From positions 1 to 64,000 of the forward strand of contig JAUVAV010000014.1 in assembly GCA_030591525.1 (NCBI GenBank): DNA of 64,000 nucleotides. The letters run 5' to 3'. A model generated the notes under the pieces. That model ran no database searches, was not told the origin of the DNA, and saw nothing but the letters and a program-made list of their open reading frames with translations. The position numbers were made by a program, and so were the translations under genes. Origin of the DNA: a candidate division FCPU426 bacterium (GTDB lineage Bacteria; Oederibacteriota; JAAXVQ01; JAUVAV01). Shown piece after piece: positions 6,801 through 43,800 of the stretch (its first letter is position 1; each line of letters starts with the position of its first letter).

Positions 6801-7340
6801 ATGACGAAAGAAATTCTGGTGGCCACGAACGCCCAAAAAATACTGGATTTCATAATCCGGAACCCGGGCAAGCAGTTTACGGCCACCGAAGTCCAGACGG
6901 GCACGAAAATCAGTAAAGCCGGCGTCAACGCCGCGTTGCGGAAACTGGCGTCCGCCAGGCTGATCACGCGCGAGAAAAAAGCCAAAATATTTCTCTATTA
7001 CGCCGAGACCGTCAATCGGCCGCTGATCAAACAGTTGAAAATCCTCCAAATTCTGTTGGCGCTCCAGCCCTTCATTCGCAAGCTTCAGCCCTTATGCGAG
7101 AAAATGATACTCTATGGAAGCGGCGCGCGCGGTGAGGATACCCGGGGAAGCGACGTGGATTTGTTGGTCATCACCAATGACCAAGCAGAGGCGGAAAAAA
7201 CAGCCGTCAAGACGGCGCTTCCCAGAAAGCTGCAACTGGTGTTTAAATCACCGCTGGCGTTCGTGGAGATGGAAAGCAAAGACCGGGAATATTTTGAAGA
7301 AGTATCCCGGGGGATCGTGCTGTGGGACGGAAAGCCATGA
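6801..7340 (+). CDS. MNT-type nucleotidyltransferase antitoxin with N-terminal winged helix
   Basis: A 179-residue protein. Residues about 1-70 form a winged-helix DNA-binding domain (KILDFIIRNPGKQFTATEVQ, 'SKAGVNAALRKLASARLITRE'). Residues about 85-175 are a minimal nucleotidyltransferase: ILYGSGARGEDTRGSDVDLLVI, with the G-S and S-D-V-D-L metal-binding motif. In MNT/HEPN systems the MNT protein neutralises the HEPN RNase, in studied cases by AMPylating it. Start chosen at ATG with an aaagga RBS. The gene overlaps the HEPN gene by ATGA. The fused DNA-binding domain and the palindrome just upstream suggest it represses its own operon. Confidence 0.85.
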   Translation: MTKEILVATNAQKILDFIIRNPGKQFTATEVQTGTKISKAGVNAALRKLASARLITREKKAKIFLYYAETVNRPLIKQLKILQILLALQPFIRKLQPLCEKMILYGSGARGEDTRGSDVDLLVITNDQAEAEKTAVKTALPRKLQLVFKSPLAFVEMESKDREYFEEVSRGIVLWDGKP

Positions 7341-7768
7341 ATGCCGATTTTAAAGAGTGTCTACGGAAGAGAAAAATCACGGAGTTTACACGGGGCAAAG
7401 CGCTGGCTGCCAAGGAACTCAGGATTGCCAGAGAGGATTTTAAAACCGCCAAGCAATCCTATGACCGTTCAGGCTATAAATGGGCAACCGTGCAAGCCTA
7501 TTACTCCATGTTCCACAGCGCCCGGGCCTTATTGTATGCCAAAAACTACCGTGAAAAAAGCCACGCCTGTCTCATCATTGCCATCCGGGCCTTGTATGTG
7601 GACCAGAAATTGTTGCCCTTAAGCTTGCTGGAATATTTGCAGAAAGCCAAAATGCTCAGGGAAAACGCCGACTATTCCAACGAGTGGTCGCGCGAAGGCG
7701 CCCGTCTTCTGGTAAAAGCAGCGGAAGATTGGTGCTTAAAAAGTGAAACTTTATTGGGTAAGAGATAA
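7337..7768 (+). CDS. HEPN-domain toxin partner
   Basis: A 143-residue all-alpha HEPN protein, the likely RNase toxin of the pair. Typical signature: KWATVQAYYSMFHSARALLYAKNYREKSHACLI, with the R-x(3)-H segment REKSH and the conserved aromatic-rich helix. The start is taken at ATG 7337, which overlaps the MNT stop as ATGA; a GTG 15 nt upstream is less likely. MNT/HEPN pairs often reside in defence islands and this one sits directly ahead of the DISARM-like operon. Function is from family knowledge; the R-x-H spacing is shorter than the classical R-x(4-6)-H, so RNase activity is not certain. Confidence 0.8.
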   Translation: MNADFKECLRKRKITEFTRGKALAAKELRIAREDFKTAKQSYDRSGYKWATVQAYYSMFHSARALLYAKNYREKSHACLIIAIRALYVDQKLLPLSLLEYLQKAKMLRENADYSNEWSREGARLLVKAAEDWCLKSETLLGKR

Positions 7769-8193: not shown

Positions 8194-11100
8194 ATGGACG
8201 TCTTTTCTTTACGCTCGCAACTCATTGAAGATTACTCTGACTATATACAGGGCTTCATCAACATCAGGGACCAGCGTATTCGGGACTACGTGGATGACCA
8301 GCTCCGGAGTGGATTGCTATGGCCAGAGCCGCTAGTCCAACTAAATCCCTTTTTCAAGTCTGGTGGCACCATAGATAAGTTGGCAGACGAGGGTGTGCTT
8401 CATGCTGAGTGCAAGAAGGTCTTCAGGCGTAAAAAGGATCAGGCCGATGCTGGCATGGCCATGGACTTATATAAGCACCAGGCTGACGCAGTCCGGACAG
8501 CCAACACGGGTCGAAACTATGTGCTGACCACGGGCACAGCCTCAGGTAAAAGCCTAGCCTACATTATTCCCATTGTGGATCACGTTCTCCGCAATTCCAA
8601 GCCAAATACTATTAAGGCGGTCATTGTTTACCCGGTCAACGCATTAGCCAACAGCCAGATGGAAGAACTCAAGAAATACATCAACTACGGCTATCCTGAC
8701 GGTAAAGGCAAGGTTACCTTTGAACTCTTCACCGGCCAAGAGGATGACACCACCCGAGAGCGTATCAAAAACAACCCGCCGGACATCTTGCTGACCAACT
8801 ACGTTATGCTTGAACTGCTGCTGACAAGGCCTGCTGATAAAACTTTAATACAGGCCGCCCAGGGGCTGAGTTTCCTGGTGTTAGACGAGCTTCACACTTA
8901 TCGTGGCCGTCAGGGCGCCGATGTGGCCTTGGTTGTAAGGCGGCTAAGAGAGGCGGTGGCATCAAGCCATCTTCAGTGCGTCGGCACATCGGCAACGCTG
9001 GCAAACAAGGGGAGTTTTACCGACCACCAGTGTGAAGTGGCGGCAGTGGCTTCAAAACTTTTCGGTTCCGAAGTGAAACCTGAAGATGTTATTACCGAGA
9101 CCTTAAAACGGTGTACTGATACTGGTATTACCGCGTCCCCTGATTTCAAACAACGGCTGGTAACGCGGGTTCGGCTTGCAAAAAAAGGGGTGCCAGCTAC
9201 ACACGAGGCGTTTCTCAAAGATCCGCTTTCGGTTTGGATAGAAGGAACCTTTGGCGTGCGTGAGAAGGAGGGTAGGTTGGTCAGGGCGCAGCCGACCCCT
9301 ATCCGGGGGCTGGAAAACGCGTCAATGAAATTGGCCGGTGAGACTGGCCTGCCAGCGGACCAATGCGCTGAAGTCATTCAGGATCACCTTTTAGCTGGTT
9401 ATTTACTCCACGACAATGAGGGCCGCCCGGCGTTTGCCTTTCGTCTGCACCAGTTTATAAGTCGTGGTGATACGGTGTATTCCACGGTTGAATCCGAAGC
9501 AGTGCGTATGTTTGCGTCCCACGGCCAGAGATTCCACCCAAAGGCACCTGAAAAGGCCATTCTGCCTCTGGTTTTCTGTCGGGAGTGCGGTCAGGAGTTC
9601 TATACGGTTTTCCGCGTGAACCAGGAAGGCCGAACCGCATATGAGCCCCGTTTGCTTCGCGATATGGGTCGGGACGATGAGGAAGCCGGTGAACCTGGCT
9701 TCCTGTTCATCAGTGAAAAGGACAGCTGGCCAATTCAGGAGGAGCAGTATCTCGACCGGGTTCCAGAAGACTGGAAAGAGGAATTTCACGGCAGCGATCG
9801 CGTGAAGCGGGATAAGCGCAAGGACCTTCCAAAAGTGATTCGTGTGAACCATGAAGTCGCGGAAGATAAAGCGGGGTCTTGGGCGGCCTTTGTACCGGCC
9901 CCGTTCCGTTTCTGTCCCTGCTGCGGGGTGACCTACAAAGGTCGCATGGCCGACTACTCCAAGCTGGCTTCCTTGGCCACGGAAGGCCGCAGTACGGCCA
10001 CGACGGTCCTCAACTTCTGCGCACTATGCTTTCTCCGCGATCCCAAGTCAGGTCTTGCCGACGAAGCGCAAAAAATCCTCAGTTTCACAGACAACCGGCA
10101 GGATGCCGCTCTTCAAGCCGGTCACTTCAATGACTTCATACAAATCGGCCAGCTACGGGCTGCTGTCTACAAGGCGGTTAGTCAGGCTGGGCCAGCAGGC
10201 TTGGATGGCTCGCGCATTGTTGAAAAGGTCTTTGAAGCTCTGGCGCTTGACCCCGAGGAATACGCGATCAATCCAGATCCGCGTTTTGGGGCAAGGGACG
10301 AGGCGGATGTCGCCCTACGTCAGGTACTGGGATACCACCTCTATAGGGACTTGGAACGTGGTTGGCGCATCACGTCCCCTAACCTGGAGCAGTGCGGCCT
10401 CCTGAAGATTGAATACGGCAAGCTCAAGGAACTTTCGGAAGCTAATGACGTTTGGCAGGATTGCCATCCCATTTTAGCCCAGGCCAGCCCGGAGACCAGG
10501 CGGGAAGTTTGCAAAGTCCTCCTTGACCTATTGCGTCGCGAACTTGCCATTAAAGTCGAGTGCCTAGATACCAATCAACAGGAACGCATTAAGTCAGCGA
10601 GCTACCAGCACCTTTTCGGCCCATGGGCGCTGGACGAAGATGAGCGCTTGGAGACAGCGCACCTGGCGCTTCCGCGTAGCGTAACCAACCAGGATTACGG
10701 TGGCAACGTATTCATATCCGCCCGCAGTGGTTTTGGTCAATACCTGCGGAGGGAAGGGACATTCCCAGAGTGGCCTCGAAACGCACGTCTGAATTCAGCG
10801 GACACACAACCTGTTATCGAAGAGTTGTTCAACAAGTTGGAGATCGCCGGTCTGGTGGAGAGGGTTAGGGCGAGAAGAGGTGGCACCGAGAAAGGATTCC
10901 GCCTGAAGGCTGACCGCATCATGTGGCTGGCCGGAGACGGCACAAGCCCATATTACGACCCGATTCGCATACCCCGCCCGCCCAAGGACGGCGGAAGAAC
11001 CAACCCCTTTTTCGTGACTTTTTATCGCAACCGCGCCTGCCAGGGCAAGGGCCTGCTTTCCAGGGAACACACAGCCCAGGTTGAATCCAACGATCGCAAA

Positions 11101-13371
11101 GAAAGAGAAAAAAAATTCCGCAGCGGTGCGTTAAAAGTGTTGTTTTGCTCCCCGACAATGGAGCTTGGCATTGACATCGCTGAGTTGAACGTAGTCAACC
11201 TGCGAAATATACCTCCTACCCCAGCCAACTACGCACAACGAAGTGGCCGGGCCGGTCGCCACGGACAGCCTGCCTTGGTGTTCACCTATTGCTCCAGCGG
11301 CAGCAATCACGACCAGTATTATTTCCGCAGACCCCACGATATGGTCTCCGGAGCCGTGGACGCCCCGCGCCTGGACCTGAGCAATGAAGATTTGGTCAAG
11401 GCCCATGTCCATTCGCTTTTCCTGTCAGAAGCCGGATTGAAACTAGGCGAGTCCCTGGTGGACATTCTTGACTTGAGTGGCGACCAGCCTAAGTTGAGGC
11501 TGAAGGAAGAAGTGAAAGCCAAATTTGACTCCGTCCCGGCCAGGCAGAGGACTATAGAAGCCGGCAAGAATTTCCTGAAGAGTATTGAGCCGGGACCCGC
11601 AGAAGCAGTTTGGAGCCGCGAGGGCTGGCTGGAAGAGACCGTAAACAAAATAGAGCTGGATTTCTTGTCAGCCTGCAACCGCTGGTGGAGCCTTTATGAA
11701 ACCGCTGTAAAACAGTTGGATCTTCAAGGCCGCATTGCCCGAGACCTTTCACGGCCCCAGGAGGATCGTGACAAGGCCATGGCTAGGCGTAAAGAAGCCG
11801 AAGCGCAGTTCGCACTGCTTACAGACACCAGGCGCGTGGTAGAAGCTGACTTTTACAGCTATCGGTATTTCGCCTCTGAGGGCTTTCTACCGGGCTTTAA
11901 CTTCCCGCGCCTGCCCATCTCGGCCTACCTGCCTGCCTCTACAACAAGGAGGGGCAAGGAGGGCTTTCTCTCACGGCCACGATTCCTGGCCATCTCAGAG
12001 TTCGGCCCCAGGGCCATCATCTACCACGAGGGTTCACGCTACCGCATCGAACGGGCCATGTTGCCCCTACGCGGGCCAGACGAAGAGCTTCCGACCAGGA
12101 CGGGGAAGCGCTGCGAACATTGTGGCTATTTCCATCCCCAAGATGGCCCGACATTGCCAGACCTATGTGAGCGGTGCAACCAGGAATTGGGCCAACACTT
12201 TAGCCACCTTTTCCGGATGCAAAACGTTTCCACTCAGCGAGTCCAGCGCATCAACAGCGACGAGGAGGAGCGCCGGCGCATGGGTTACGAGATTCAAAGT
12301 GCCATCCGATTCAACAATGCGACGGGCCTGCCTGGACAGAGAAAGAGCCGCCTGATGTTGGGAGGAAAGCCGTTCGCTGAACTCACCTATAGCCATGCTG
12401 CCACTATCACCCGTTTGAACTTCGGTTGGACCCGCCGGGCAGATAAGGACATCAAAGGATTCTTGATGGACTTGGAGTGGGGACGATGGGAAAAGAACAA
12501 GGTGGATGAGGATGACGAGCAGGGCAGGGACCTGGAAATGCGGCGGCCCCAGAGAGTGATCCCCTTTGTAGAAGACCACCGAAATTGTCTGCTTCTTGAG
12601 CCCATTGAACCCCTGGAGGATGGAGTTATGGCGTCGCTGCAGGCAGCCCTGAAAACGGCTATCCAACTTGAGTTCCAGCTTGAAGACAGGGAGCTGGCCG
12701 CAGAGGCATTGCCGGATAGGCAAAACCGCAGGTTTATCCTGCTTTACGAGTCCGCTGAAGGTGGGGCAGGGGTACTAAAACATCTAGTGGAAGAGGCAGA
12801 AGCGTTTAAGCGGGTGGTTAGACGTGCCCTGGAGATTTGCCATTTCGACCCCGAAACTGGTGAAGATTGGAAACATGCACCACACTCTAGAGAAGACTGT
12901 GTGGCAGCCTGCTACGATTGCTTGATGAGTTATTACAACCAGCAGGATCATAAACTGCTGGATAGGCGCGGGCTAAAAGACATTCTGCTCAACCTGCGTG
13001 GAGCTACCTTGGAAGCCTCACCCAATACCCTGGACCGCAAGGCGCATCTGGACATACTTATGAGACGCTGTGACTCGGACCTTGAGAGGGAGTGGCTCAC
13101 TTTATTGGAACAGCATAATTTGAATCTTCCGACACGATCCCAAGTGCTGATGGAAGACTGTGGCACCCGGCCAGATTTTATATACGACGGGCAACAGACA
13201 GTGATTTATGTTGATGGGCCGGTGCATGATTATCCGGAACGGCAGAAACGGGATATAGATCTCAAAAACAGGTTGGAAGACAAAGGTTACTTAGTCCTAC
13301 GGTTTAGTATAAAGGACGAGTGGAAAAAATTTCTTATGCAACACCAAGCACTATTCGGTGGTATTGCTTAA
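8194..13371 (+). CDS. YprA/MrfA/DruE-like DUF1998 helicase with C-terminal nuclease-like domain (DrmA+DrmB equivalent)
   Basis: A 1725-residue SF2 helicase. Motif I is TTGTASGKS (Lys about 119), motif II LDELH (Asp about 231), then GTSATL, and a distant second RecA domain with [18 protein letters not shown] and motif [12 protein letters not shown] (about 1015). Zinc-type cysteine pairs occur in [14 protein letters not shown] and CEHCGYFHP...CERC. The late part is DUF1998-like: [17 protein letters not shown] and [15 protein letters not shown]. The last 100 residues resemble a DUF559/Vsr-like PD-(D/E)XK domain ([23 protein letters not shown]). DISARM carries helicase DrmA and DUF1998 protein DrmB separately; Druantia DruE and Bacillus MrfA combine them, as here. 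First gene of a three-gene operon, 26 nt before the SNF2 gene. Likely role: DNA translocase and effector of an anti-phage system. Confidence 0.85.
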
Positions 13372-13397: not shown

Positions 13398-16265
13398 ATG
13401 GATTATGCGGTTGGCTCTTTAGTCAAAGCCCGCGGCAGGGAATGGGTGGTTCAGCCGGGGTCGGATGAGGAAGTCATCAGGGTCCGTCCCATTGGTGGTA
13501 GCCCTGAAGAGGAAACGGGATTGCTATATGCGTTAGAAGGCGCTGACATTACCCCGGCCCAATTCGCTCTACCAGCCATTAATCAGCTTGGCGATTACCG
13601 TTCCTGCAAACTGCTGCGCGATGCTGTCCGCATTAACACCCGGTCCGGGGCTGGGCCTTTCAGAAGTCTGGCACGCATCGCGGTAGAACCTCGACCCTAC
13701 CAGTTGGTGCCCCTTTTGCTGGCTTTGAAGCAGGACCCGGTGCGTCTTTTAGTAGCCGATGACGTTGGAGTGGGAAAAACTATTGAATCCTGCATGATAG
13801 TAAGGGAGCTCATCGACCGGGGGGAGATCAAGTCTTTCGCCGTGTTGTGCCCACCTCACCTGGCCGACCAATGGCAGCGTGAGCTCAACGACAAGTTTCA
13901 CCTGGACTCTGAATTGGTGTTGCCTGCCACCATTGCCAGACTGGAACGCGGCTTGCCGCAGCACATATCAGTTTTTGACCATTACTCCCGTATGGTCATC
14001 TCCATGGACTTCATCAAATCCGAGAAAAAGCGCAATGAATTCATCAGCCGCGCACCGGAGTTGGTGGTGGTCGATGAGGCGCATACTTGCGCCACAGGAT
14101 ACGAAGGCCGGGCCAGCCATCATTATCGCCATGAGTTGGTGAAAGCCCTGGTGGATAAGGCCAACACAAATGGCGAGATACGTCACCTCATCCTGGTCAC
14201 AGCCACACCCCACAGTGGCAAGGACCAGGCTTTCAGGTCATTGCTGGCCCTCCTGAATGAAGATTTCCAGAAACTCCCCGACAACTTAGGCGGCCAGGAG
14301 AACGAGGCTTTACGACGACGGCTTGCAGGGCACTTCGTCCAGCGACGCCGCGCCAATCTGGAAAGATTTGTAGGTGTCAATACACCTTTTCCCAAAAGGG
14401 AATCCAAGGAAGAAGACTACCACCTTACCCAGGAATACCAGACGTTCTTCGACAAGATATTGGAATATGCGTCTGAAAAAGTCCGCAGTGAGGAGACTGA
14501 TCAGCGTCGTAAGCGGCTTAACTGGTGGTCGGCATTGGCCCTGTTGCGCTCCCTGGCCTCAAGTCCGGCTGCCGCCGCTGCCACGCTTAGAAGCCGGGCT
14601 AAGGTTGCGGACGAAGAGTCAGTGGAAGACATCGAAGAAGTTGGCCGTCAGAGTGTGCTTGACGTACAGACGGAAGACAAAAATGAAGGAGTAGACCTGT
14701 CGCCGGGGGCAGACATATCCGGGAAAAAGGACGACGAAAAAGCCATCACTGATCCGCGATTGGCTAAGCTGGCCAAGGAGGCCGAAAGCCTTAGGGGAGA
14801 GAAAGACGCAAAGCTCCAGAAAGCCGTGAAGATGGTGAAGGTGCTGGTAGACGAAGGCTTCCAGCCCATTGTTTTCTGTCGGTTCATTGCCACGGCGTCC
14901 TATGTTGCGGAGGAGCTGAGCCATCGCTTGAGCAAAAGCGTTGAGGTTACCTGCGTAACCGGAGAACTATCACCGGCAGAGCGCGAGGAAAAAGTCCTGG
15001 CAATGGAAAGCCACGGCAAGCGTGTGCTGGTGGCCACGGATTGCCTCAGCGAGGGCATCAACCTCCAGGAGCTTTTTAACGCCGTTATCCATTATGACCT
15101 TTCCTGGAATCCAACGCGCCACGAACAGCGCGACGGGCGCGTGGACCGGTTTGGCCAGGCGCACAGCCCAGTTCGCATCATCACCTATTACGGCCATAAC
15201 AATCCTGTGGACGGCATGGTGCTACAGGTTCTGTTGAAGAAGCACGAGGAGATACGGAAGAAGACGGGCGTAGGCGTGCCGGTGCCCAGAGATAGCGAGG
15301 CTGTCATGGACGCTATCCTTGAAGGTCTGTTGCTGCGCGAAAAGCAGAGTGGCGATCATCAGAATTTTCTACCTGGCCTGGAATCGGTATGGAAGCCCAA
15401 AGCAGAAGGCTTTCACCGGCAGTGGGAAGAGGCCGGGGAGAAGGAAAAGGCGCTTAGGAGCATGTTCGCCCAGGAGTCTATCCGTGTAGAGGAACTGCAA
15501 TCCGAACTTGAAGCTTCGAGAGCTGCGGTAGGTTCATCCTTGGATGTCGAGGACTTCACCAGGGCGGCATTGGAGATGCACGGTGGTCTGGTCAGGGACA
15601 AGAAGAACCATGTGGTACTTGACCTTAACGAACTGCCCCAGGAGCTCAAGGATAGTCTGCGTGATGCACTGGGAAGCACGGACAGTCAGGTCGCGGCTCG
15701 ATTTGACCTACCACTGACAGACGGTGTGCGCCATCTTTCCCGCACCAATCCTTTCGTAGAGAACTTGGCTTCATTTTGCATGGACACCGCATTGGACAGC
15801 CTGGCAAGCGCCAAAGCTCAGCGTTGCGGGGTCATCCAATCCAAGGCTGTGGCCAAGCGTACCACTGTTTTACTGACCAGATTCCGCTTCGATCTCACCA
15901 CGGTATTTAAGGACCGCCAGGAATCCCAGATCAGCGAAGAAACCGGGGTGCTGGCTTTTGAGGGAGCTCCTGAAGAAGCTGTATGGATGGACGCCGGGAC
16001 TTCAGAAGGCCTGCTTGACGCCAAACCTTCGTCTAACGTGGACGGCAAGAGAGCAGAAGTATTCCTGCAAAAGGTTGTGGAAGGCCACAAAGCTTTAATT
16101 CCAAAATTGGAGGAGGAGGCCAAACAGCGGGCCAAGGCTTTGCAGGCGGCGCACAGTCGGGTGAGGACGGTTTCAAAGCAGAAGGGACTGGCCTATAAGG
16201 TCCGGGAACAACTACCAGTGGATATTCTTGGTATTTACGTTATTTTACCGCATACGAGCCAATAG
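13398..16265 (+). CDS. SNF2-family helicase, DrmD-like
   Basis: A 955-residue Swi2/Snf2 ATPase. Motif I is ADDVGVGKT (Lys about 127), DEAH box VVDEAHTC (Asp about 226), motif III VTATPHSG, and C-terminal RecA domain with VFCRFIATASYVAEEL, VATDCLSEGINLQ and motif VI RDGRVDRFGQ (about 578). The DDVGxGKT and 'YYGHNNPVDG' style is that of the DISARM class 1 protein DrmD. The region after residue about 640 is a long, mostly helical and charged extension. Start chosen for the taggag RBS. Its TAG stop is immediately followed by the ATG of the methyltransferase gene, so the two are translationally coupled. Likely acts as a DNA translocase together with its neighbours. Confidence 0.85.
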   Translation: MDYAVGSLVKARGREWVVQPGSDEEVIRVRPIGGSPEEETGLLYALEGADITPAQFALPAINQLGDYRSCKLLRDAVRINTRSGAGPFRSLARIAVEPRPYQLVPLLLALKQDPVRLLVADDVGVGKTIESCMIVRELIDRGEIKSFAVLCPPHLADQWQRELNDKFHLDSELVLPATIARLERGLPQHISVFDHYSRMVISMDFIKSEKKRNEFISRAPELVVVDEAHTCATGYEGRASHHYRHELVKALVDKANTNGEIRHLILVTATPHSGKDQAFRSLLALLNEDFQKLPDNLGGQENEALRRRLAGHFVQRRRANLERFVGVNTPFPKRESKEEDYHLTQEYQTFFDKILEYASEKVRSEETDQRRKRLNWWSALALLRSLASSPAAAAATLRSRAKVADEESVEDIEEVGRQSVLDVQTEDKNEGVDLSPGADISGKKDDEKAITDPRLAKLAKEAESLRGEKDAKLQKAVKMVKVLVDEGFQPIVFCRFIATASYVAEELSHRLSKSVEVTCVTGELSPAEREEKVLAMESHGKRVLVATDCLSEGINLQELFNAVIHYDLSWNPTRHEQRDGRVDRFGQAHSPVRIITYYGHNNPVDGMVLQVLLKKHEEIRKKTGVGVPVPRDSEAVMDAILEGLLLREKQSGDHQNFLPGLESVWKPKAEGFHRQWEEAGEKEKALRSMFAQESIRVEELQSELEASRAAVGSSLDVEDFTRAALEMHGGLVRDKKNHVVLDLNELPQELKDSLRDALGSTDSQVAARFDLPLTDGVRHLSRTNPFVENLASFCMDTALDSLASAKAQRCGVIQSKAVAKRTTVLLTRFRFDLTTVFKDRQESQISEETGVLAFEGAPEEAVWMDAGTSEGLLDAKPSSNVDGKRAEVFLQKVVEGHKALIPKLEEEAKQRAKALQAAHSRVRTVSKQKGLAYKVREQLPVDILGIYVILPHTSQ

Positions 16266-19200
16266 ATGAGCCGACACACGGAGCTGTTTGCCAGCGTGAG
16301 GACCGAGGGAGCCATGCTTCCGGCTGACCTGCTGAAGAAGGTGGCTGAGGGCAGCCGTGACCTGGCTGGTCTAAGCTCGGAACATTATCATCTGCCCGAT
16401 ACGGAGAGGATTTCTACGGCGGTAAGCCGGGCGTGGACCCGGCTAAGGACTGCCTGGTCTGGTTTCAAGGCCGCCACGGCTGGCTTGGGCCAGGGTGATT
16501 TGGGAATAGGCCTCACCCGCGAGAAGTGGCTTCTGCAACTCTTCCAGGCTCTTGACTATGGGCGCTTGCAGACGGCCAAAGGTTTGAAAGTAAAGGACAA
16601 AGTATACGCTATTTCCCACCTGTGGCGTACCGTGCCCATCCACCTGGTAGGCTTTCGCGTGGACTTGGATCGCCGCCAAAAAGGCGTGGCCGGTGCTGCC
16701 AAAATATCCCCCCACGGGCTAATCCAAGATTATCTGAACCAGGAACTCGCCTCCCTATGGGGCATGGTTTCAAATGGCCTCAGGCTTAGGCTTCTTAGGG
16801 ATAACGTTAGCCTCACCAAGCAGGCTTATGTGGAATTTGACCTGGAGGCTATGTTTGAGGGCGACCTCTACGCGGACTTCCACTTACTGTGGATGCTGTG
16901 CCATCAAAGCAGGTTGGAGGGGGGAAAACCCGAAGATTGCTGGTTAGAACAATGGTCTGACCAAGCCCGTGAACAGGGTATCAGAGTGATGGACAGCCTC
17001 CGCCAGGGCGTGGAAGCGGCTCTCAAGGTGCTGGGGAAGGGTTTTGTATCCCATAAGGACAACGGGCCACTTCGGAAAGACTTGCGCGACGGAAAATTGA
17101 AGAACGAGGACTTCTACCGACAGCTCCTCCGCGTGGTCTATCGCCTTCTTTTTCTTTTTGTGGCTGAAGACAGAAAACTGCTGTTGGACCCGCAGGCCAG
17201 CGAGAAGGCCAAAGCCAGGTATCGGAATTTTTATTCCACGGCCCGTCTTCGTCACCTGGCAGGCCGCGTTCCCGGCGGCAAGTACGTCGATCTATACCGC
17301 TCCCTGGTCCTGCTTATGGGTATGCTTCATGAAAAGGGCTGCAAAGAGCTTGGGTTGCCCGCTCTAAACAGTTTCCTGTGGTCTGGGGACGCCGTGAAGG
17401 ACCTATGTCACTGTGAGCTGACCAACCGCGATCTCCTGAAAAGCATACGTTGTCTAGCATACACGCAGAAAGAGAAAGTACTCAGCGCTGTTGATTTCCG
17501 CAACCTGGGTTCTGAGGAGCTAGGTAGTGTTTATGAGTCTTTGCTGGAATTGCACCCCAAGATCATAGCCGATGCTGGAGGATTCGAGCTGTTTTCAGCC
17601 CAAGGCAATAAGCGCAAATCTACTGGCAGCTATTACACCCCCACCAGCCTTATCAATGTCTTGCTTAAGTCAGCCCTGGACCCAGTGCTGGAACACGCGG
17701 CCAGCCAGGCCAATCCTGAGCAGGCCATATTAAACTTAAAAATTTGCGATCCTTCCTGCGGCAGCGGACATTTTCTCGTGGCCGCCGCTCACCGGGTGGC
17801 CAAACGGCTGGCCATGGTCCGGACCGGGGACGAAGAGCCGTCACCGGAAGCCTTGCGGCATTCGCTCAGAGACGTGGTAGGCCGTTGCCTTTATGGCGTA
17901 GACCGCAACGAAATGGCAGTGGAGTTGTGCAAGGTATCTCTGTGGATGGAGGGAATGGAACCCGGCAGGCCACTGACATTCCTTGAGCACCGCATTCAAT
18001 GTGGCAACAGTTTGATGGGCGCGACCCCTACACTCATTGCTAAGGGCATTCCTGATGACGCTTTCGTGGCCTTGGAAGGTGACGATAAAAAGCTGGTGTC
18101 AGCTTTGCGTAAGCGCAACAAACAGGAGCGGAGCGGCCAGACAACTCTGGATTTCGGTTCCGTCGATCAGGCGGAACAGGTAGCCTTGGCGGATTCGATG
18201 GCAAGCATCAATGTCTTGAGCGATGATTCAGTGGATGCTATACAGGAAAAGCAGAAGCGCTTTACTGCTTTAAGCCATTCACAGGCATATCTTCATGCCA
18301 AGGCTGTAGCAGATGCCTGGTGTTCGGTTTTTGTGGCGGAGAAAAACGCCGCGCACCCGGAGAGCTATACCCAGGATACCTTTCTGAAGCTTAAAAGCGA
18401 TCCCAAAGACATGACCGCTCCTTTGGCAAAAGAGGCCGCCATGCTATCAGAGCAATATCAGATGTTGCACTGGCACCTAGCTTTCCCGGATGTATTCAAG
18501 CCCGCGCCGGACCCGGCAAAGGCGGAGAAAATGGGCTGGATAGGCGGCTTTGACGTGATGCTGGGTAATCCCCCCTGGGAGCGCATCAAGATTCAGGAAA
18601 AGGAATGGTTCGCCCAGCACGACGCAGGTATCGCCGGTGCCGAGAACGCGGCCAAACGCAAAAAAATGATTGAGAAGCTCCAAGAACGGAATCCGCATCT
18701 GCTTGCCCAGTTTAACCAGGCGAAGCGTCAGGCCGAGGGTGAGAGCCATTTCTTGCGTGGATCAGGCAGGTTTCCCCTGGCAGGGCGGGGAGATATTAAC
18801 ACCTTCGCAGTCTTTGCCGAAACGTTCAGGGACATGCTAAATCCTGAAGGTCGGGCAGGTTTTATTGTTCCTTCGGGTATAGCTACAGACGACACCACAA
18901 AGTATCTGTTCCAGGACCTGGTGGCCAAGGACACACTGGTCAGCCTGTATGATTTTGAAAATCGAGAGGGCATCTTCCCAGCGGTGGATAGCCGGATGAA
19001 GTTTTCTTTAGTCACAGTGGCCGGGGAAGGACGCAGGTCCAAGACGCCTACTGACTTTGTGTTTTTCGCGCTGCGGGTTGAGCACTTGGCGGAACAGGAG
19101 AGGCATTTCACGCTGACCAAGGATGAGTTTAAGCTCATAAGTCCTAACACAGGCACTTGTCCTATTTTTCGGAGCAAACGAGACGCGGAGATCACCAAGA

Positions 19201-20681
19201 AAATATATAGTCAAGTTCCAGTCTTGATCAAGAAAGGCAAGAATAACGGAGAAGATATCAATCCGTGGGGCATTAGGTTTCAAGCAATGTTTCACATGGC
19301 CAATGATTCTGGAGATTTCCGGCAGCGGATTTGGCTTGAAGATAAAGGTTTCAGGCTATTCAAAAATGTATTCAAAAGAGGCAAAGAAACTTACTTGCCT
19401 CTTTACGAAGCCAAAATGATTCACCAGTTTGACCACCGCTGGGCTACTTATGTTAGCGACAAGGGGGCAAAGGACCTGCCACCTGAGGAGAAAGCGGACC
19501 CGGATACTGTGGCTTTACCACATTACTGGATTGATGCGAAGTTGGTGGACAAAAGGCTGTCTGGTAAGTGGGAACACGATTGGCTAATGGGTTGGAGAGA
19601 TATTACGAATACGACTAACGAGAGGACGATTATCTCCAGCGTTGTATCAAGGGCGGGAGTTGGCGATAAATTTCTGCTAATGTTTCCGTTAAAAAAGCCT
19701 CAACAAATAGCATGTCTATTGGCGAATCTTAATAGTATTCCTTTTGATTATGTAGGCCGTCAGAAATTGGGTGGAACTAGCGCCAAATACTTTTTTATGA
19801 AGCAGCTACCGATAATGTTGCCTGAGACCTATGAAATACAAACGAACTGGTCTGAAGGGCGGAGTTTGGCGGAATGGATCAGTGCAAGGGTTGTCAAATT
19901 GGTCTATACCTCTAGGGAGTTGGAGCCCTTTGCTAAAAGTTTAGGTTACATGGGAAATCCTATAGTATTTGAATCTGCTCTTCGTCAAGAGCTTCGCACC
20001 GAGCTCGATGCAGCATTTTTCCATCTCTACAGGCTTGATCGGCAGGACGTTGAATACATTCTTGATACTTTCCCCATTACAAAGCGCAAGGATGAGGAGA
20101 AGTTTGGTGAATACAGAACCAAGGTCCTTGTACTGAAAAACTTTGATCTCATGGGTGGGGTTCAACCAACCGCTCAGATTATCGAATTTCCGAAGGAGGC
20201 TTTCAAAAGAGTCCGTCCTACAGAGGGTCAGCGATATCGAAACTGCGTGCCTATCTGGAACCTGAAGGCCGCCGCGGGTGGTTTTAGCTCGTCACAAGAA
20301 GTGGAAGAGCTGGAGGAATGGGCAGAACTGAATACAACTAAGAAATTGAAACCCGGCATGTTCGTGGCCCAGGTTGTGGGAAGGTCGATGGAGCTGAGCA
20401 TTCCGGATGGCTCTTGGTGCATGTTCTCCTGGCCAGCGGCTGGCTCTCGCAATGGACGCGTCCTGTTGGTAGAGCACCACGATATCCACGACCCAGAAAC
20501 CGGCGGCAGCTATACCGTAAAGCGCTACAAGAGCACGAAGGTATCCGATGGTGAAGGCGGGTGGAAGCATGTGGAAATCCGGTTGGAACCGGACAATAAG
20601 GACTTTGAGCCTATCGTGTTGACGCCGAAGGACGAGGATGAGGTGCGGGTAGTGGCGGATTGGGTTGAGGTGCTTAAGTGA
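16266..20681 (+). CDS. Eco57I/PglX/DrmMI-like adenine DNA methyltransferase fused to an S24 (LexA-type) domain
   Basis: A 1471-residue protein. The SAM-binding motif is KICDPSCGSGHFLVAA (Asp 495), preceded by TGSYYTPTSLINVLL; the N6-adenine catalytic motif is MLGNPPWERIK (Asn 768). Further features are GVDRNEMAVELCKVSLW and a large target-recognition region. Residues about 1340-1471 form a LexA/S24-type domain: KPGMFVAQVVGRSME with Ser 1374 in a G-R-S-M motif, IPDGSWCMF, and YTVKRYKS with Lys 1419 as a candidate general base. The whole block (NCVPIWNLKAAAGGFSS onward) looks like a complete S24 module rather than a fragment. Such a fusion could make methylation or release depend on self-cleavage or DNA-damage signals; that is inference. 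BREX PglX and DISARM DrmMI have similar methylase cores. No separate restriction enzyme gene accompanies it. Confidence 0.87.
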   Translation: MSRHTELFASVRTEGAMLPADLLKKVAEGSRDLAGLSSEHYHLPDTERISTAVSRAWTRLRTAWSGFKAATAGLGQGDLGIGLTREKWLLQLFQALDYGRLQTAKGLKVKDKVYAISHLWRTVPIHLVGFRVDLDRRQKGVAGAAKISPHGLIQDYLNQELASLWGMVSNGLRLRLLRDNVSLTKQAYVEFDLEAMFEGDLYADFHLLWMLCHQSRLEGGKPEDCWLEQWSDQAREQGIRVMDSLRQGVEAALKVLGKGFVSHKDNGPLRKDLRDGKLKNEDFYRQLLRVVYRLLFLFVAEDRKLLLDPQASEKAKARYRNFYSTARLRHLAGRVPGGKYVDLYRSLVLLMGMLHEKGCKELGLPALNSFLWSGDAVKDLCHCELTNRDLLKSIRCLAYTQKEKVLSAVDFRNLGSEELGSVYESLLELHPKIIADAGGFELFSAQGNKRKSTGSYYTPTSLINVLLKSALDPVLEHAASQANPEQAILNLKICDPSCGSGHFLVAAAHRVAKRLAMVRTGDEEPSPEALRHSLRDVVGRCLYGVDRNEMAVELCKVSLWMEGMEPGRPLTFLEHRIQCGNSLMGATPTLIAKGIPDDAFVALEGDDKKLVSALRKRNKQERSGQTTLDFGSVDQAEQVALADSMASINVLSDDSVDAIQEKQKRFTALSHSQAYLHAKAVADAWCSVFVAEKNAAHPESYTQDTFLKLKSDPKDMTAPLAKEAAMLSEQYQMLHWHLAFPDVFKPAPDPAKAEKMGWIGGFDVMLGNPPWERIKIQEKEWFAQHDAGIAGAENAAKRKKMIEKLQERNPHLLAQFNQAKRQAEGESHFLRGSGRFPLAGRGDINTFAVFAETFRDMLNPEGRAGFIVPSGIATDDTTKYLFQDLVAKDTLVSLYDFENREGIFPAVDSRMKFSLVTVAGEGRRSKTPTDFVFFALRVEHLAEQERHFTLTKDEFKLISPNTGTCPIFRSKRDAEITKKIYSQVPVLIKKGKNNGEDINPWGIRFQAMFHMANDSGDFRQRIWLEDKGFRLFKNVFKRGKETYLPLYEAKMIHQFDHRWATYVSDKGAKDLPPEEKADPDTVALPHYWIDAKLVDKRLSGKWEHDWLMGWRDITNTTNERTIISSVVSRAGVGDKFLLMFPLKKPQQIACLLANLNSIPFDYVGRQKLGGTSAKYFFMKQLPIMLPETYEIQTNWSEGRSLAEWISARVVKLVYTSRELEPFAKSLGYMGNPIVFESALRQELRTELDAAFFHLYRLDRQDVEYILDTFPITKRKDEEKFGEYRTKVLVLKNFDLMGGVQPTAQIIEFPKEAFKRVRPTEGQRYRNCVPIWNLKAAAGGFSSSQEVEELEEWAELNTTKKLKPGMFVAQVVGRSMELSIPDGSWCMFSWPAAGSRNGRVLLVEHHDIHDPETGGSYTVKRYKSTKVSDGEGGWKHVEIRLEPDNKDFEPIVLTPKDEDEVRVVADWVEVLK

Positions 20682-37535: not shown

Positions 37536-37871
37536 TTAAATATGTTCTTTTTGTAAAGTTTTCTTTAATTCAACCACCATAATATAATATAAAATTGGGC
37601 CTGCAAAATAAAAAAACATACCGAATATTATTATAAACAGCCATATGTATTTCATAAAGCCGCTGGTAAATGATTGCTTGCTCCAATGCGAAAAAGAAAA
37701 ACACAAGATATAGATAGCGCAAATAATAGAGATGAATATCCATGCGCCTAAAAGCATTTCAGGAAACGTAATATTTTTCAGACTTCCTGAAGCTGATATC
37801 GGTGAAAAAATAGAAATCAAGTTCCCTATGGCTAGATTCAGTATCAGTATTCTTTGGATTATTTTCTTCAT
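37536..37871 (-). CDS. Small membrane protein, unknown
   Basis: A 111-residue protein with four hydrophobic segments (about 5-28, 39-60, 72-95 and a final FAGPILYYIMVVE stretch). I do not recognise a family. A very good RBS (aggaggagaag) precedes the ATG. The first 113 nt lie inside the 3' end of the giant coiled-coil gene in another frame, so the two are translationally linked, or the giant gene's last codons are the product of a frameshift. Probably the same transcript as the giant gene. Confidence 0.6.
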   Translation of the reverse strand: MKKIIQRILILNLAIGNLISIFSPISASGSLKNITFPEMLLGAWIFISIICAIYILCFSFSHWSKQSFTSGFMKYIWLFIIIFGMFFYFAGPILYYIMVVELKKTLQKEHI

Positions 37872-40800
37872 TTCTTCTCCTCCTGAATGGCATTATCGCC
37901 TTTTTGAGTAATTTATCAAGATTAATGTGTCCTTCACAGGTTACGCCTATAGGAGTTCCGGGAAAAATAAATGTGCCGCCTATTACTATAGCGTCTTGGT
38001 TTATTTCAACAAAATCCTTTCTCCAATAGAAATCAAATTTACTCTCGCCGTTCTCTTTTGCTATTCTAACTCCTATCCCTAATAATTCAAGTTCACCTCC
38101 TATATAATTTTCTTTTTTAAATACAAATTTACCATCTATTACTTCTTTTAAAACACTTTTCTTGCACCCGACTTTAAAACGCCCAAATCTTCCTAATTTA
38201 AGTTTGGCCATGTAGCCTACACACAATCCGAATTTTGTACCATCTATGACACCGGTTTTTCCATAATCCGAATCTAACTTATATGCTGTATTTAAGGTAC
38301 GTTCCTGCCAATATTTGAGACCGTTCTTAAATTTATTGGGATTTTTCCAGAAAATCCTGGCATTATTTAAATTTTCACTTCCCTTTTTACCAATGTTTTT
38401 TCCAATTTGTCCGGCTTTGTTTAACCCCCAGCGCGAAAGGTCTGTGGTGGTTTTAATATATTTTTTTGGATTAATAAAATTAGCCGCCCCGGTTTTCATT
38501 AAATTTAAGGAGCTTTTTATCCCGGCTTTTGTAATATCGCCTATTTGATAAGCAGTCTTTTTTAAATTTTCGGCTTTTTCAGGCGCTCCACGGCCTAACG
38601 CTTCATTCACCTTCTCCGCTTTTTTCTCCCACCTCCTTGGATCAACCCAGGTCTTTCCGGCTTCTTTAAATACTGCGCCGACTTTAGGGGCTGTTTCAAT
38701 AATAGCCGCATTAACTTTCTCCGCCTTGGGGCCCCACCTTCGCGGATCTGCCCAGGTTTTGGCTCCTTCTTTTAGCGCTCCGTTGACGCGGGAAAACAGG
38801 GAGGGAGTCTCTGAATCCTCTTCTGATATCCATACGTTTCTTCCGGTCGCAGGATCGATTTCCCAATGCCCTTTGCCAGGCGGCATGGGAATACCGCCGC
38901 GCGGAGGGGATAAATCGGCTTTTTCCAGCAGGGACACATTACCATCAGTGGCGGCGTTGGAACTGCCTGGGCGGACATGGAAGTCCGCCCCTACCTTTGA
39001 AATGCTTGAGCGGACACCGGAGTCTGCCCCTGCGTTTGAACTGCTTGGGCGAACACGGGGGTCCGCCCCGACATTTGAACTGCCTGGGCGGACACGGGGG
39101 TCCGCCCCGACATTTGAACTGCCTGGGCGGATACGGGGGTCCGCCCCTACATGTGAAATGCTCGAGCGGATACCGGAGTCCGCCCCTACGTCTGAAATGT
39201 CCGGGAGACTGTAAAGGCTGGGGTCGATCTGCGCAAGATAATCATCCATACTGCTTTGATATGTCTGTCCGGCATGATTTGCATACGCTCCTTTATTCCT
39301 CGCCGGGCCGTTTCCCAGGACATACACCGGACCCGGGTTTTCCAGGGAACCAAGCAGCCGGGCGCCCAGGCTGGCTAGAGATGTCACATCTACGCTCTGG
39401 ATAGCCTCCCAGGCCTGTGCTCCATGCTGGTAATATTCTTCTCCCTGTCTGTATATATCACTAATATCCGTATAGATTCCGCGCAGGTCATCACTCAGAT
39501 AAGCGCTCAAATCATCAAGCATGCTGAAAATGTAATCAGCCGATAAATCAAAATCCGCGTCAAAAGTAAAATAAATCTTCTCCAGCACGCTTTTAGCGGG
39601 CTGGAACTCCGGGGGCAGGAATTTGTCTATCAATCCGTTGAGGGAATCCGCCCATTTTCTGCTAGTCAGTTCTTCCAGCCATCGCGACGGCCCGCTTGCG
39701 AAAATGTCAAGATACTCCTGCGCCTGGCCCCAGTATTCCTGCCAGCAGTTTTGGACCCACTGGAGGCCGCGGTCCACCAATGAGCTGATCCCAGCGGAAA
39801 TGGATTGCATAAACCCATCCACGGCCCGGAAAAAATCAAATTTCCAATTCTCGGAATTGAAAATATCGGCCACTGTATCCCAAACCTGATCTGCCTGGAA
39901 CCAACTGCCGGATGAATCGAAACGAAACTCAAAACTGTCAGCTATAAATCCGCTGATCATATCTCCGGCTTTAGTGAAGAATTGTCCGGGGGTTAAAGTG
40001 AAATTCATAAAAGCCGCGCCCAGATCGATCTGGCAGGCGGCAGTAATGAAATCTTTAAGCCTGCCTGCCAGATTCTTGCCAAAGTTACTAAAACCTTCCG
40101 CGATCCCGGCCCACAAGCTTAGAGCGTTGTGGGAGCCTCCCATATCCGCGATCAAGACCCTGACCTGATCTATTGCCGTCTGCCCGAAATCAGCTGTTCC
40201 GCTAAAATGCGCTGCCAGTTTTTGGCCTATTCCAGCCAGGTCCAGAGTCTTATTACCGCTTAGCTGATCCCAGATATCCAGCACATTTTTACCTAAGGCA
40301 TTAATGGATTGCATAAAAGCGTTATTACTTATCAAAGCCTGGACATCTCCGATGAAAGAATCTATCTGGCTGGTGATGAGATCCGGCAGGCGTTGGAAAA
40401 CGTCCAATTGCTGCATGAACTCAGAACGCAGGATCAAATCTTTTAGAGGCCCGGTGACTGTGCTGAAAATCGTCTCGATCTGTTTGGTTTCAAGACCTAT
40501 CTCGCGTATGAGACGGCCCAGATCGCTTTTAAGCAATTCAGTAGTACCTTGCGCAACAGCCTGATCGAGCAGATGTTTTACGTCCTGCCTCAGCCGGGTC
40601 AAATTTTCTACATGTTTATAAGCCTCGGTGCGATGAAGCCATTTAGAAAATTGGCCGCCACCTTGGGCTGCCAGGTTATTCAAGAGACCAATAACGTCCC
40701 TGGGATTCTCAAGCTCTTTTAAGATGGGATGGGATTCCACCAGCCTGGCAAACACATCCTGCTGCAAGGTTTGTAACAATTCCTGATCTATCTTAAACTG

Positions 40801-43800
40801 CCCCGGATTTACGAAATTGAAGGCCGGATCTGGAGTCCGGTTCCCGGGATTCAGTTGATAGGTAATCTTTTTCCGCGCTTCCTGGAATTCCTCACCCAGG
40901 GTCTTATATTTCCCGGCAATGGCTTGCATAACCAGGGCTGCATCTGCTCTCCGGATTTCCAGCAACTGGCGCTCCAGGCCGGCATTAAAATGATCTTTTA
41001 GATTCCGGAGTTTATCGAGTTCTTTAACGATTTGAGACTGGGAGCCTGCCAGGCCGATTTGTTTAGCTAATCTGTCCAGGGCCGGATCGGAAGTGGAGAG
41101 CAGGAGCATGGCAGGCCGTGCCTCTGTGAAGATGAGCTTGGCCAAATGATCACTAATTTCCAGAATATGCCGGTCCAGCAGTGTGCGCGCCTCGTCGCCC
41201 AGGATGGCAACTTGATCCAGGGCTTGCTGCACTTCAGTGCGCATAGCCTGCTGCCGGATAAAATCCACTGCACAGTTAACGGCGTTTTCGTATATTTTTT
41301 GTAGAGGCTTGGTGTGTTGCATATCCCAATCCGGCGGTGCCCGGCCAGCGGCAAGATCCTTAGCGGCCCGGTTGGTCCGGTCTTTAGCGCGTGCCAGGGC
41401 CCGGCTCATGTCGCTGGCAAAGGACGCCAGATGAATATTCTTAATTATGTCTCCAATATCCTTCGCAGCTCCGGCTGCCAGGTGGTTGATGTTTAAAAGC
41501 GCATCCTTGCATTCCCGGCCGGACTGCTTACCCATATCCAACAGCCGGGTTTTAAACCGGGCCTGGCTGCGTTGGGCGATTGACTTAACCTGGGCGGCAT
41601 TAAATTTCAATCCGGCGCTCATGAGCTGAGCGGATATTTCCATATTTATCAGGTCCAAAGCCGCGGCTATTTTTTCCCGGTCCATCCGGTATTTTTCCAG
41701 TCCTTTTTGCACCTCTGGCTTTCGCAAGGTTTGCTGCATATCAATACCGGCTTTATTCAATACGGCTTGCAAATGCGTTGCCTCATCAGCCGGCTGGTCA
41801 AATTGCTGCATGAGCCGGCCTTGCAAAACCAGCTGCTTAAGCAGATGCAGATTAGTCTTTAAGTAATGCTTGGCCTGGATTTGGGTGCTTTGTAATTCAT
41901 GCACTTGCTGCCGAATTTTGCCTAAAAGCACGGCCTGCTTTACGGTCTGGATAAAAGATTGCAGGTCTCGCTGTATTTGGTTCTCTTTGATTGACAGGGT
42001 TTTAAAATCTTCCGGATATTTATGTCCCATGATTTGTTCAAGTGTTTCACCGGAATATAAGTCATATTGATGCTCCAATCCCTGATGGAGAGTACCAAGT
42101 CTTGCCAAAGCCGGGAGCGCCGGGTTTTTAATCAAGGCTTCTTCAAGGGCCTGGCTGTGTGCGGAAATTGCCGGACTATCCCCTGGCTCAGGCAGAAAGA
42201 CGCTTACTTTGGCAGAGCTTTCTGTCAGCAAGGCTTTTTGGCTATCAAGAAATTTTTTCTCTTGCGCTATTCCGGCTTCAATCTGTTTTTTCAAATCTTG
42301 CCAATTGTGGAGTTGAAAATCCCGGGCAGAGCGGTTGGCCTGCTTTTTCAACTCAGCCCGAGCCACTGGAAGGAGATTTTGAAGGTTTTTAAAATTCTCC
42401 CCGTTTTTAACTTGCAAGGCGGCCAACCTCTCTACTCTCAGGTTAAGTTGTTGGAGCAAATCCGATTTTTCACGCAGGCAGGTCATGGTTTGCTTTACAG
42501 CGGCCGCGTGGCTAATGTGTTTTCTGGCTTTGTCGAGATGAACCGCCTGGTTCAAATGATCCCATACTGCATCCCTGGCCGCTTGCTCTGCCATTTCCAT
42601 CTTGGTCAAACTCCGGTACAGACGCAGGGCCGTATTAGTGTCCGTGCAAATTTTAATCTGCTGTTGGGCAAGCTTCCAAAAAACCGGGCCAACCGCAGGC
42701 AGCCGGCCAAAAGCTTCCAGACGGGCGGCAAAGCGGGTAAGATCAACGGCTTTTATTTGTTCAAACCCCTGGCCGGTTCTGTTCAGGACAGCCATAACCA
42801 GATTCCGGCGCGCTTGGGACAGTTGGGACAGTTCTGCGGCAAAATTAGTCCGCGATACGTTCCGGTTTAAATCCTCCGCGCTTCGGGCGCATATCATTTT
42901 CATGTATTGCTCGGCATGTCCCATTTTCTCCAAAGCCCGGATCGCATTAAAGGCAGCCAGGCTTTGTTTTGCTGCCTCGGCCTGTTTTTGCAAGTGCAAC
43001 TTGAGCAGGCCGGATTTTGCTTTAAAATAATCCGAATCGCGGAGTAATTTATAGCTGCTCAGGCCCTGCTTGATTTTACTTAAGCTTTCATGCAAGACCC
43101 GGCCGTCAGACCGGTCCGGGTCATGGGAAAATAAAGGATCAAAAGACGAGGAAACTTCTATCTGATGATAGAGTTTCTCAAACTCGCGGTCCAGACGTTG
43201 GCGCGAGGTTTGGGCAAACATTTCCATTTCCTTTACCGCGGAGCCCTTTTCCAAGGCTATGATAGATTGGTGCAAGTCCCCGGGGCCATGAGGAATTTTA
43301 TTCATGACCAGTTGGTCCAGATGATTCGCGCGCTCCAAATACAGCAAGTATTCCTTTTTAACAATCCGGCTGGGAAATCTTTCGCTCGAGTTCTCTACAG
43401 CATCCAAAAAATCTTTTTGGTGGATTTTAAAAACCTGATACCTGGTCCGGACTGCGTCTGTGAGCGTGGGCATATTCGGAGAATAAAAGAGTTCATCCCG
43501 GGCTGGAGTCAGAATCTGTTTGGCCTGGTACAGTATCTGCCGGGCTTCTGCAAAATCCGTTGGCGACTTCTTTTCAAGTTTTTGCGCCTGAAGTTCTATA
43601 TTTTCCTGATAAGCCTGAAATTTATCGCGCAGGAAGATATTCGATCCAGCCTCTGCGTATTGCCTGAGGCTGACCAGCCATTTTTGCCGGGATTCCTCCA
43701 TCGCATCCCAGGACATTTGCAGGCGGGTTAGGGCTATCGCGGCTCGTGCAAATCTACTTCCCGGCTTATGTGTTAGAGGCGCTTGGGAGGCAGTGACTGA

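Follow-up and report, generated by a model that had tools for sequence, protein, structure and literature searches.

ARMADA type I systems have been described as a YprA helicase with a C-terminal Vsr-type nuclease, followed by a BrxHII-like protein and then a PglX-like methylase (Bell et al. 2025, PMC12458937). In the window, the whole 64,000-nucleotide stretch of a candidate division FCPU426 bacterium analysed here, we identified a three-gene plus-strand operon that appears to match this type by gene order and domain content. The first gene (8194..13371, +) encodes an ArmC-like helicase of the YprA/DruE family (1725 aa), with Pfam DEAD, Helicase_C, and MZB (MrfA Zn-binding) matches and a predicted C-terminal DUF559/Vsr-like nuclease (DUF559 at residues 1623-1705, 22.5 bits against a cut-off of 20.6; PADLOC DruE, 348.6 bits); it carries no S24 module. 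The second encodes an ArmA-like SNF2/BrxHII-type helicase of 955 aa (13398..16265, +; PADLOC DpdE 785.9 bits and DrmD 291.5 bits; NCBIfam DISARM_DrmD 333 bits, under the curated cut-off of 610). The third and last encodes an ArmB-like (PglX/Eco57I-type) N6-adenine DNA methyltransferase of 1471 aa (16266..20681, +; Pfam Eco57I, N6_Mtase, and Peptidase_S24; PADLOC DrmMI, 233.5 bits). The series of YprA helicase with a Vsr/DUF559-like end, BrxHII/SNF2 helicase, and PglX-like methyltransferase is shared with ARMADA type I, whereas the LexA/S24 module at the end of ArmB sets the window apart; the words S24, LexA, and SOS are absent from the text of the ARMADA paper (PMC12458937). We considered DISARM and rejected it, as the three-gene operon has no separate DUF1998 protein (DrmB) or DrmC PLD nuclease, the zinc-binding and nuclease domains being fused to the helicase. 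Just upstream of the operon (6801-7768, +) lies an MNT/HEPN-type pair, in which a nucleotidyltransferase with an N-terminal HTH (179 aa) overlaps a HEPN protein (148 aa), and elsewhere in the window a 2438-aa ORF (37759-45075, −) has no Pfam match. A LexA-box search of the window gave no convincing site at the operon: GAAC-N4-GTTC boxes occur at chance level, CTGT-N8-ACAG shows a slight, unproven excess (18 against a mean of 12.2, with 3 of 100 shuffles as high), and a one-mismatch match to the latter at 8235, just inside the first operon gene, is unproven as a LexA box.

The methyltransferase gene is a single intact ORF with no interruption. Its methyltransferase body, residues 1-1296 (16266..20153, +), contains DPSCGSGHF and NPPW motifs and ends near the point where module-free ArmB homologues stop. 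Alignments to module-free plasmid homologues from Deinococcus, Nostoc, Rhodococcus, Streptomyces, and others mostly end at about residues 1290-1303, with one at 1333, and most ArmB tails in a Planctomycetota sample extend only 4-45 aa past the body; two genomes of that sample (G949 and G059) have the module on ArmB at the same place as the window. Two other ArmB proteins (L186 and L206) carry different C-terminal tails of about 200 aa at this position, and an ARMADA operon with a module-bearing ArmB includes a protein that combines DUF4062 and a RecG-C-like ATPase domain with a Fic-like domain at its C-terminus (L164:7290-9035). In the window, the body is followed by a flexible linker at residues ~1297-1313 (20154..20204, +) and then by the predicted self-cleaving LexA/S24 module at residues 1314-1471 (20205..20678, +), which is delimited by the Pfam match, conservation, and structural modelling with Foldseek.

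An earlier note on this DNA, made from the letters alone, had placed a full S24 module at the end of the methylase, and this observation is confirmed: Pfam Peptidase_S24 (PF00717) matches residues 1330-1464 (E 4.7e-7, 30.0 bits against a cut-off of 23.3). The start of the module should best be set upstream, at about 1314, taking in the cleavage-site region and a conserved pre-site motif. The note had also proposed a catalytic dyad, and both residues are where it put them, with GRSM beginning at 1372 and VKRY at 1418, giving Ser1374 as the predicted nucleophile (20385..20387, +) and Lys1419, in TVKRY, as the predicted general base (20520..20522, +). Its candidate cleavage site, AAAGG, is likewise present, at residues 1335-1339 rather than 1341-1345, and the predicted scissile bond is therefore Ala1337-Gly1338, in LKAAA/GGF (20274..20279, +). 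Alignment of the host LexA (L095; VPLVGLVAAGSP), which has LVAA/GSP, with the module (VPIWNLKAAAGGF) predicts a cut at the same bond, 37 residues ahead of Ser1374. The Ser-to-Lys spacing in the module is 45 residues; in LexA it is 37. The protein is not a LexA repressor proper: Pfam places a methyltransferase where the N-terminal winged HTH would be, the NCBIfam lexA score is 14.7 bits against a cut-off of 110.95, and the true host LexA is encoded elsewhere. That the module is a DNA-damage-responsive self-cleaving domain is a prediction well supported by this anatomy.

Structural modelling points to the same family. An AlphaFold2 model of the module (pLDDT 85.2, pTM 0.80; two rows, one of them from a plasmid record, were left out of the alignment used for modelling) gave 13 Foldseek matches in the PDB at E <0.001, all of them LexA or lambda CI repressors (E 2.7e-5 to 9.5e-4) and including RecA-bound and hyper-cleavable forms; UmuD was also matched. 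A PDB sequence search with the single module sequence returned no match, and one with the module profile returned weak LexA matches only (best E 0.014), so the fold claim is based on Pfam and Foldseek. The structural comparison suggested earlier thus yields a predicted S24/LexA fold, with a low-confidence loop ahead of the Lys. A second model, covering residues 1100-1471, is indicative only (mean pLDDT 68.6); in it, the last methyltransferase helix stops at 1296, residues 1302-1309 (pLDDT <50) make up a low-confidence linker, and a low-confidence loop at 1337-1343 starts at the predicted cut.

The predicted site and dyad are strongly conserved among relatives of the module. Our genome scan used S-M and TVK patterns, and the presence of Ser1374 and Lys1419 in 81/81 loci each is accordingly biased in the scan set; the site columns lie outside the scan patterns, and there A1336 and A1337 are each found in 81/81 and G1338 in 78/81. 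Because of this bias, the conservation test was repeated on 40 loci found by profile only, one of which (L147) appears to be the same gene as a scan locus (L016). Where the column is present in this set, A1337 is kept in 33 of 34 sequences, G1338 in 32 of 34, Ser in 36 of 38, and Lys in 37 of 38, so nearly all homologues keep the dyad, whereas its loss from most of them would, by the earlier note, have spoken against the idea. A 40-row alignment has 13 invariant columns of 148, including the P2 and P1 Ala, the Ser, and the Lys. One decayed module, on a type III-like Res of Geobacter sp. OR-1 (L130; L175:7558-11184), has lost the site, the Ser, and the Lys together (TVVR/A/R), as would be expected if all three serve one activity. 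At another locus (L106), a fragment of the module is present.

The module is also found on many other defence enzymes. The genome-collection scan found 301 module relatives, the best 80 of which are 41-59% identical to the window module over the best segment; these numbers, along with LexA and lambda CI as top structural matches, indicate that the module is not due to chance. Among the best-scoring 80 of 301, which are not a census, the partners (Pfam on representatives) were 29 Schlafen group 3 helicases, 23 HsdR, 16 YprA-like helicases, 3 type III Res-like proteins, 1 ARMADA methylase, and 8 others or contig-edge fragments. These 80 loci are all bacterial, and most loci are MAG contigs, some of them broken. 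The ARMADA methylase (L014) is 53-57% identical to the ArmB of the window and is frame-broken in its MAG. Profile searches added HIT-PLD-helicase proteins (L168 and L169) and a third ARMADA methylase (L164), and at least seven kinds of defence enzyme are now seen with the module: Schlafen group 3 helicases, HsdR, YprA-like helicases, type III Res, ARMADA methyltransferases, HIT-PLD-helicases, and other ResIII helicases. Whole-genome profile searches found carriers in 4 of 45 genomes of the window's own phylum and in 10/395, 5/399, and 19/392 genomes of three other phylum samples, the latter three counts including centre genomes picked for having the module. Each locus has one module, no second having been found, and some genomes have two or three in separate systems. 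HsdM and HsdS precede the HsdR-module gene at L025, and HsdS is also present at L013 and L036; Mod precedes the Res-module gene at L030, L032, and L037; and an Eco57I-type methylase precedes the YprA-module gene at L048 and L091. Neighbours of this kind indicate that the module loci are real systems. A search of the literature (open-licence PubMed Central text; an unlisted report could exist) found no report of an S24 module on these enzymes. As judged from these sequences, this S24 subfamily is a portable module that is not specific to methylation.

Two further loci show the module in other states. At L173:9249-9743, a stand-alone 164-aa module gene directly follows a ResIII helicase, the fusion here being divided between two genes, and at a locus in the window's own phylum (L002; G009:C27), the front half of the module is missing, the frame runs on from a transposase, and the upstream sequence reads as HsdR-like. 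The position of the module can also vary. In EcoEI-type HsdR proteins (L165 and L167, the latter adjoined by HsdM and HsdS), it lies near the N-terminus rather than at the C-terminus. Alignment with HsdR proteins that lack the module, one from Aromatoleum EbN1 and one from a cyanobacterial plasmid, shows that it interrupts the nuclease domain, after the N-terminal helix and ahead of the catalytic ADYVL...VIEAKK. The same arrangement, with the module just before the catalytic motif, was seen at L166 (and L138). At a contig edge in L178 (G1059:C31), a module sits immediately ahead of the Walker A motif of the HsdR motor, possibly a third insertion position.

The history of the module appears to include repeated changes of partner. 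Mapping the partners onto a 106-module tree takes 21 changes of label against a minimum possible of 7, and HsdR and YprA rows interleave. The starred branches force more than one partner change for the four largest partner groups, and the modest support of the tree leaves exact transfer numbers unsure. Plasmid records searched with the module alone gave one match only, in Halomonas, with the module after a Schlafen-type helicase. An origin of the module from a phage repressor has no support, as no relative was found in phage records and none was confirmed in an IMG/VR scan.

A restriction enzyme can be lethal to its own cell if the host DNA is under-methylated, if there has been DNA damage, or if the system has moved into a new host. 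What is understood of the control of such self-harm comes from a few E. coli enzymes. The need of restriction enzymes for alleviation following DNA damage is established in E. coli (PMC3874165); ClpXP destroys the HsdR of EcoKI, the degron never having been found (PMC4231737), and plasmid-induced EcoKI alleviation is independent of SOS induction, with lexA1 having no effect (PMC11109961). Once LexA has cut itself, its N-terminal fragment is likewise a target of ClpXP degradation (PMC11442139). LexA and a tmRNA tag of AEPELALAA are both present in the host of the window, and LexA scores above its curated cut-off in 24 of 30 other module-bearing genomes.

We propose, with about an even chance of being right, that the module is a portable LexA-type DNA-damage fuse that switches its enzyme off; cleavage, the RecA trigger, degradation, and the direction of the switch are all steps that we infer. 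This reading is favoured because the fold matches LexA and lambda CI, the site and dyad are near-invariant, the fusions are recurrent, and LexA is present in most of the hosts checked. Broken or stalled host DNA, including damage from the defence system hitting its own chromosome, would give rise to RecA-ssDNA filaments, which would bind the module and prompt a self-cut between Ala1337 and Gly1338. Where the module is a C-terminal fusion, as on the methyltransferase, HsdR, Res, and helicases of the YprA and Schlafen types, the cut would leave the enzyme body with an (A/I/V)-A-A end. Such an end is similar to those of the LexA fragment that ClpXP degrades (VAA) and of the ssrA tag (LAA), and the body may be destroyed; in EcoEI-type HsdR, a cut in the module would split the nuclease itself. 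The net result would be restriction alleviation of a built-in and transferable kind. The degron step cannot apply throughout, as the cut in an inserted HsdR module gives the main body no AAA end. Host LexA proteins, too, commonly have Ala at P2, and this residue may stem from ancestry rather than from degron selection. Two points against a damage fuse are that the LexA-box searches gave no convincing site at the operon and that, in the window, it is the methyltransferase that carries the module and not the helicase with the nuclease; loss of the methylase alone could put the host at risk, unless the complex as a whole cannot work without it. The earlier note had suggested that coupling the domain to a modification enzyme would let the cell switch methylation or release the system upon infection or SOS. 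The anatomy supports a damage-responsive, self-cleaving domain well, but methylation is too narrow a target for it: HsdR, Res, and the YprA-like and Schlafen-type helicases have the module too, and a switch acting on the restriction or defence machinery as a whole is the better fit. More tentatively, and somewhat short of even odds in our judgement, an undescribed portable "SOS fuse" may be common to type I and III restriction enzymes, ARMADA and other YprA systems, Schlafen-type helicases, and others, combining RecA coupling with built-in alleviation through a ClpXP-type AAA end or a nuclease split.

Cleavage of UmuD activates polymerase V, and the same fold thus offers a precedent for a switch in the other direction, in which the intact module would keep the enzyme inactive and RecA-triggered cleavage, upon phage replication or DNA damage, would free active restriction. 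The conserved catalytic anatomy is equally expected under this activation, and the insertion in the EcoEI-type HsdR could block the nuclease sterically. We consider activation unlikely: each of the enzymes has module-free relatives that work, or are presumed to work, with no such cap, a nuclease switched on by host DNA damage would worsen self-damage, a cut within the nuclease domain of HsdR would detach a piece of its fold rather than free it, and in the window the module is tethered by a flexible linker to the distal end of the methyltransferase. Alternatively, self-cleavage might respond to something other than RecA, such as a phage protein, a small ligand, or autodigestion as a complex assembles or disassembles, making the module a phage sensor or timer. 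Conserved cleavage machinery alone does not name its trigger, and the 45-residue spacing and low-confidence loop before the Lys, against 37 residues in LexA, suggest that the RecA interface may differ. This alternative is quite unlikely in our view, as the top structural matches are repressors that respond to RecA, some of them in RecA-bound form, and most hosts checked have LexA; that the best 80 scan loci are all bacterial, as RecA dependence predicts, is weak evidence in the same direction.

LexA C-terminal domains form dimers, and the earlier note had allowed that the S24 domain might serve only as a fold for protein contacts. A non-cleaving domain for dimerisation or contacts is now disfavoured and very unlikely, with the scissile Ala-Gly, the Ser, and the Lys among the most conserved of the 148 columns and all lost together in the one decayed copy, when contacts would not require them. 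A fusion made by assembly or a chance ORF is scarcely credible, even with several related loci being fragments or frameshifted MAG contigs (L014 and L080), given a single unbroken frame of 1471 aa, the recurrence of the ArmB fusion in two further genomes (L014/L126 and L164), and fusions of the module to other enzymes across many phyla, including the named strains Geobacter sp. OR-1 and Thioalkalivibrio.

If the module does act as a DNA-damage fuse, it would be a direct molecular link between the DNA-damage response and immunity, through a LexA-type module on restriction enzymes of many phyla, and one safety device reused across unrelated systems. It would also provide a single point, S1374A or K1419A, at which to part defence from self-protection.

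Set against known systems, the module shares with the LexA/UmuD/lambda CI family (MEROPS S24) its fold, the Ser-Lys dyad, the Ala-Gly site just upstream, and a cleavage-site strand before the catalytic core. Unlike these proteins, it has no HTH or polymerase partner and is joined to restriction and defence enzymes; with its longer Ser-Lys spacing, an extra loop, and a conserved pre-site motif, it forms a subfamily of its own. The HIT-PLD-helicase-S24 proteins (L168:6718-10503 and L169:6009-9710) are SauUSI-like, having PLD-like and helicase domains ahead of the module as in SauUSI-type PLDc-helicase enzymes (PMC3874153); SauUSI ends in DUF3427, whereas these proteins have HIT in front and the S24 module at the end. 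With EcoKI alleviation by ClpXP (PMC4231737, PMC11109961), the proposed outcome is the same, a temporary loss of restriction that would protect host DNA. EcoKI alleviation relies on an unidentified degron and needs translocation rather than SOS induction. Cutting of the enzyme under the control of RecA would therefore work by another mechanism, in which a dedicated, predicted self-cleaving module is carried on the enzyme itself.
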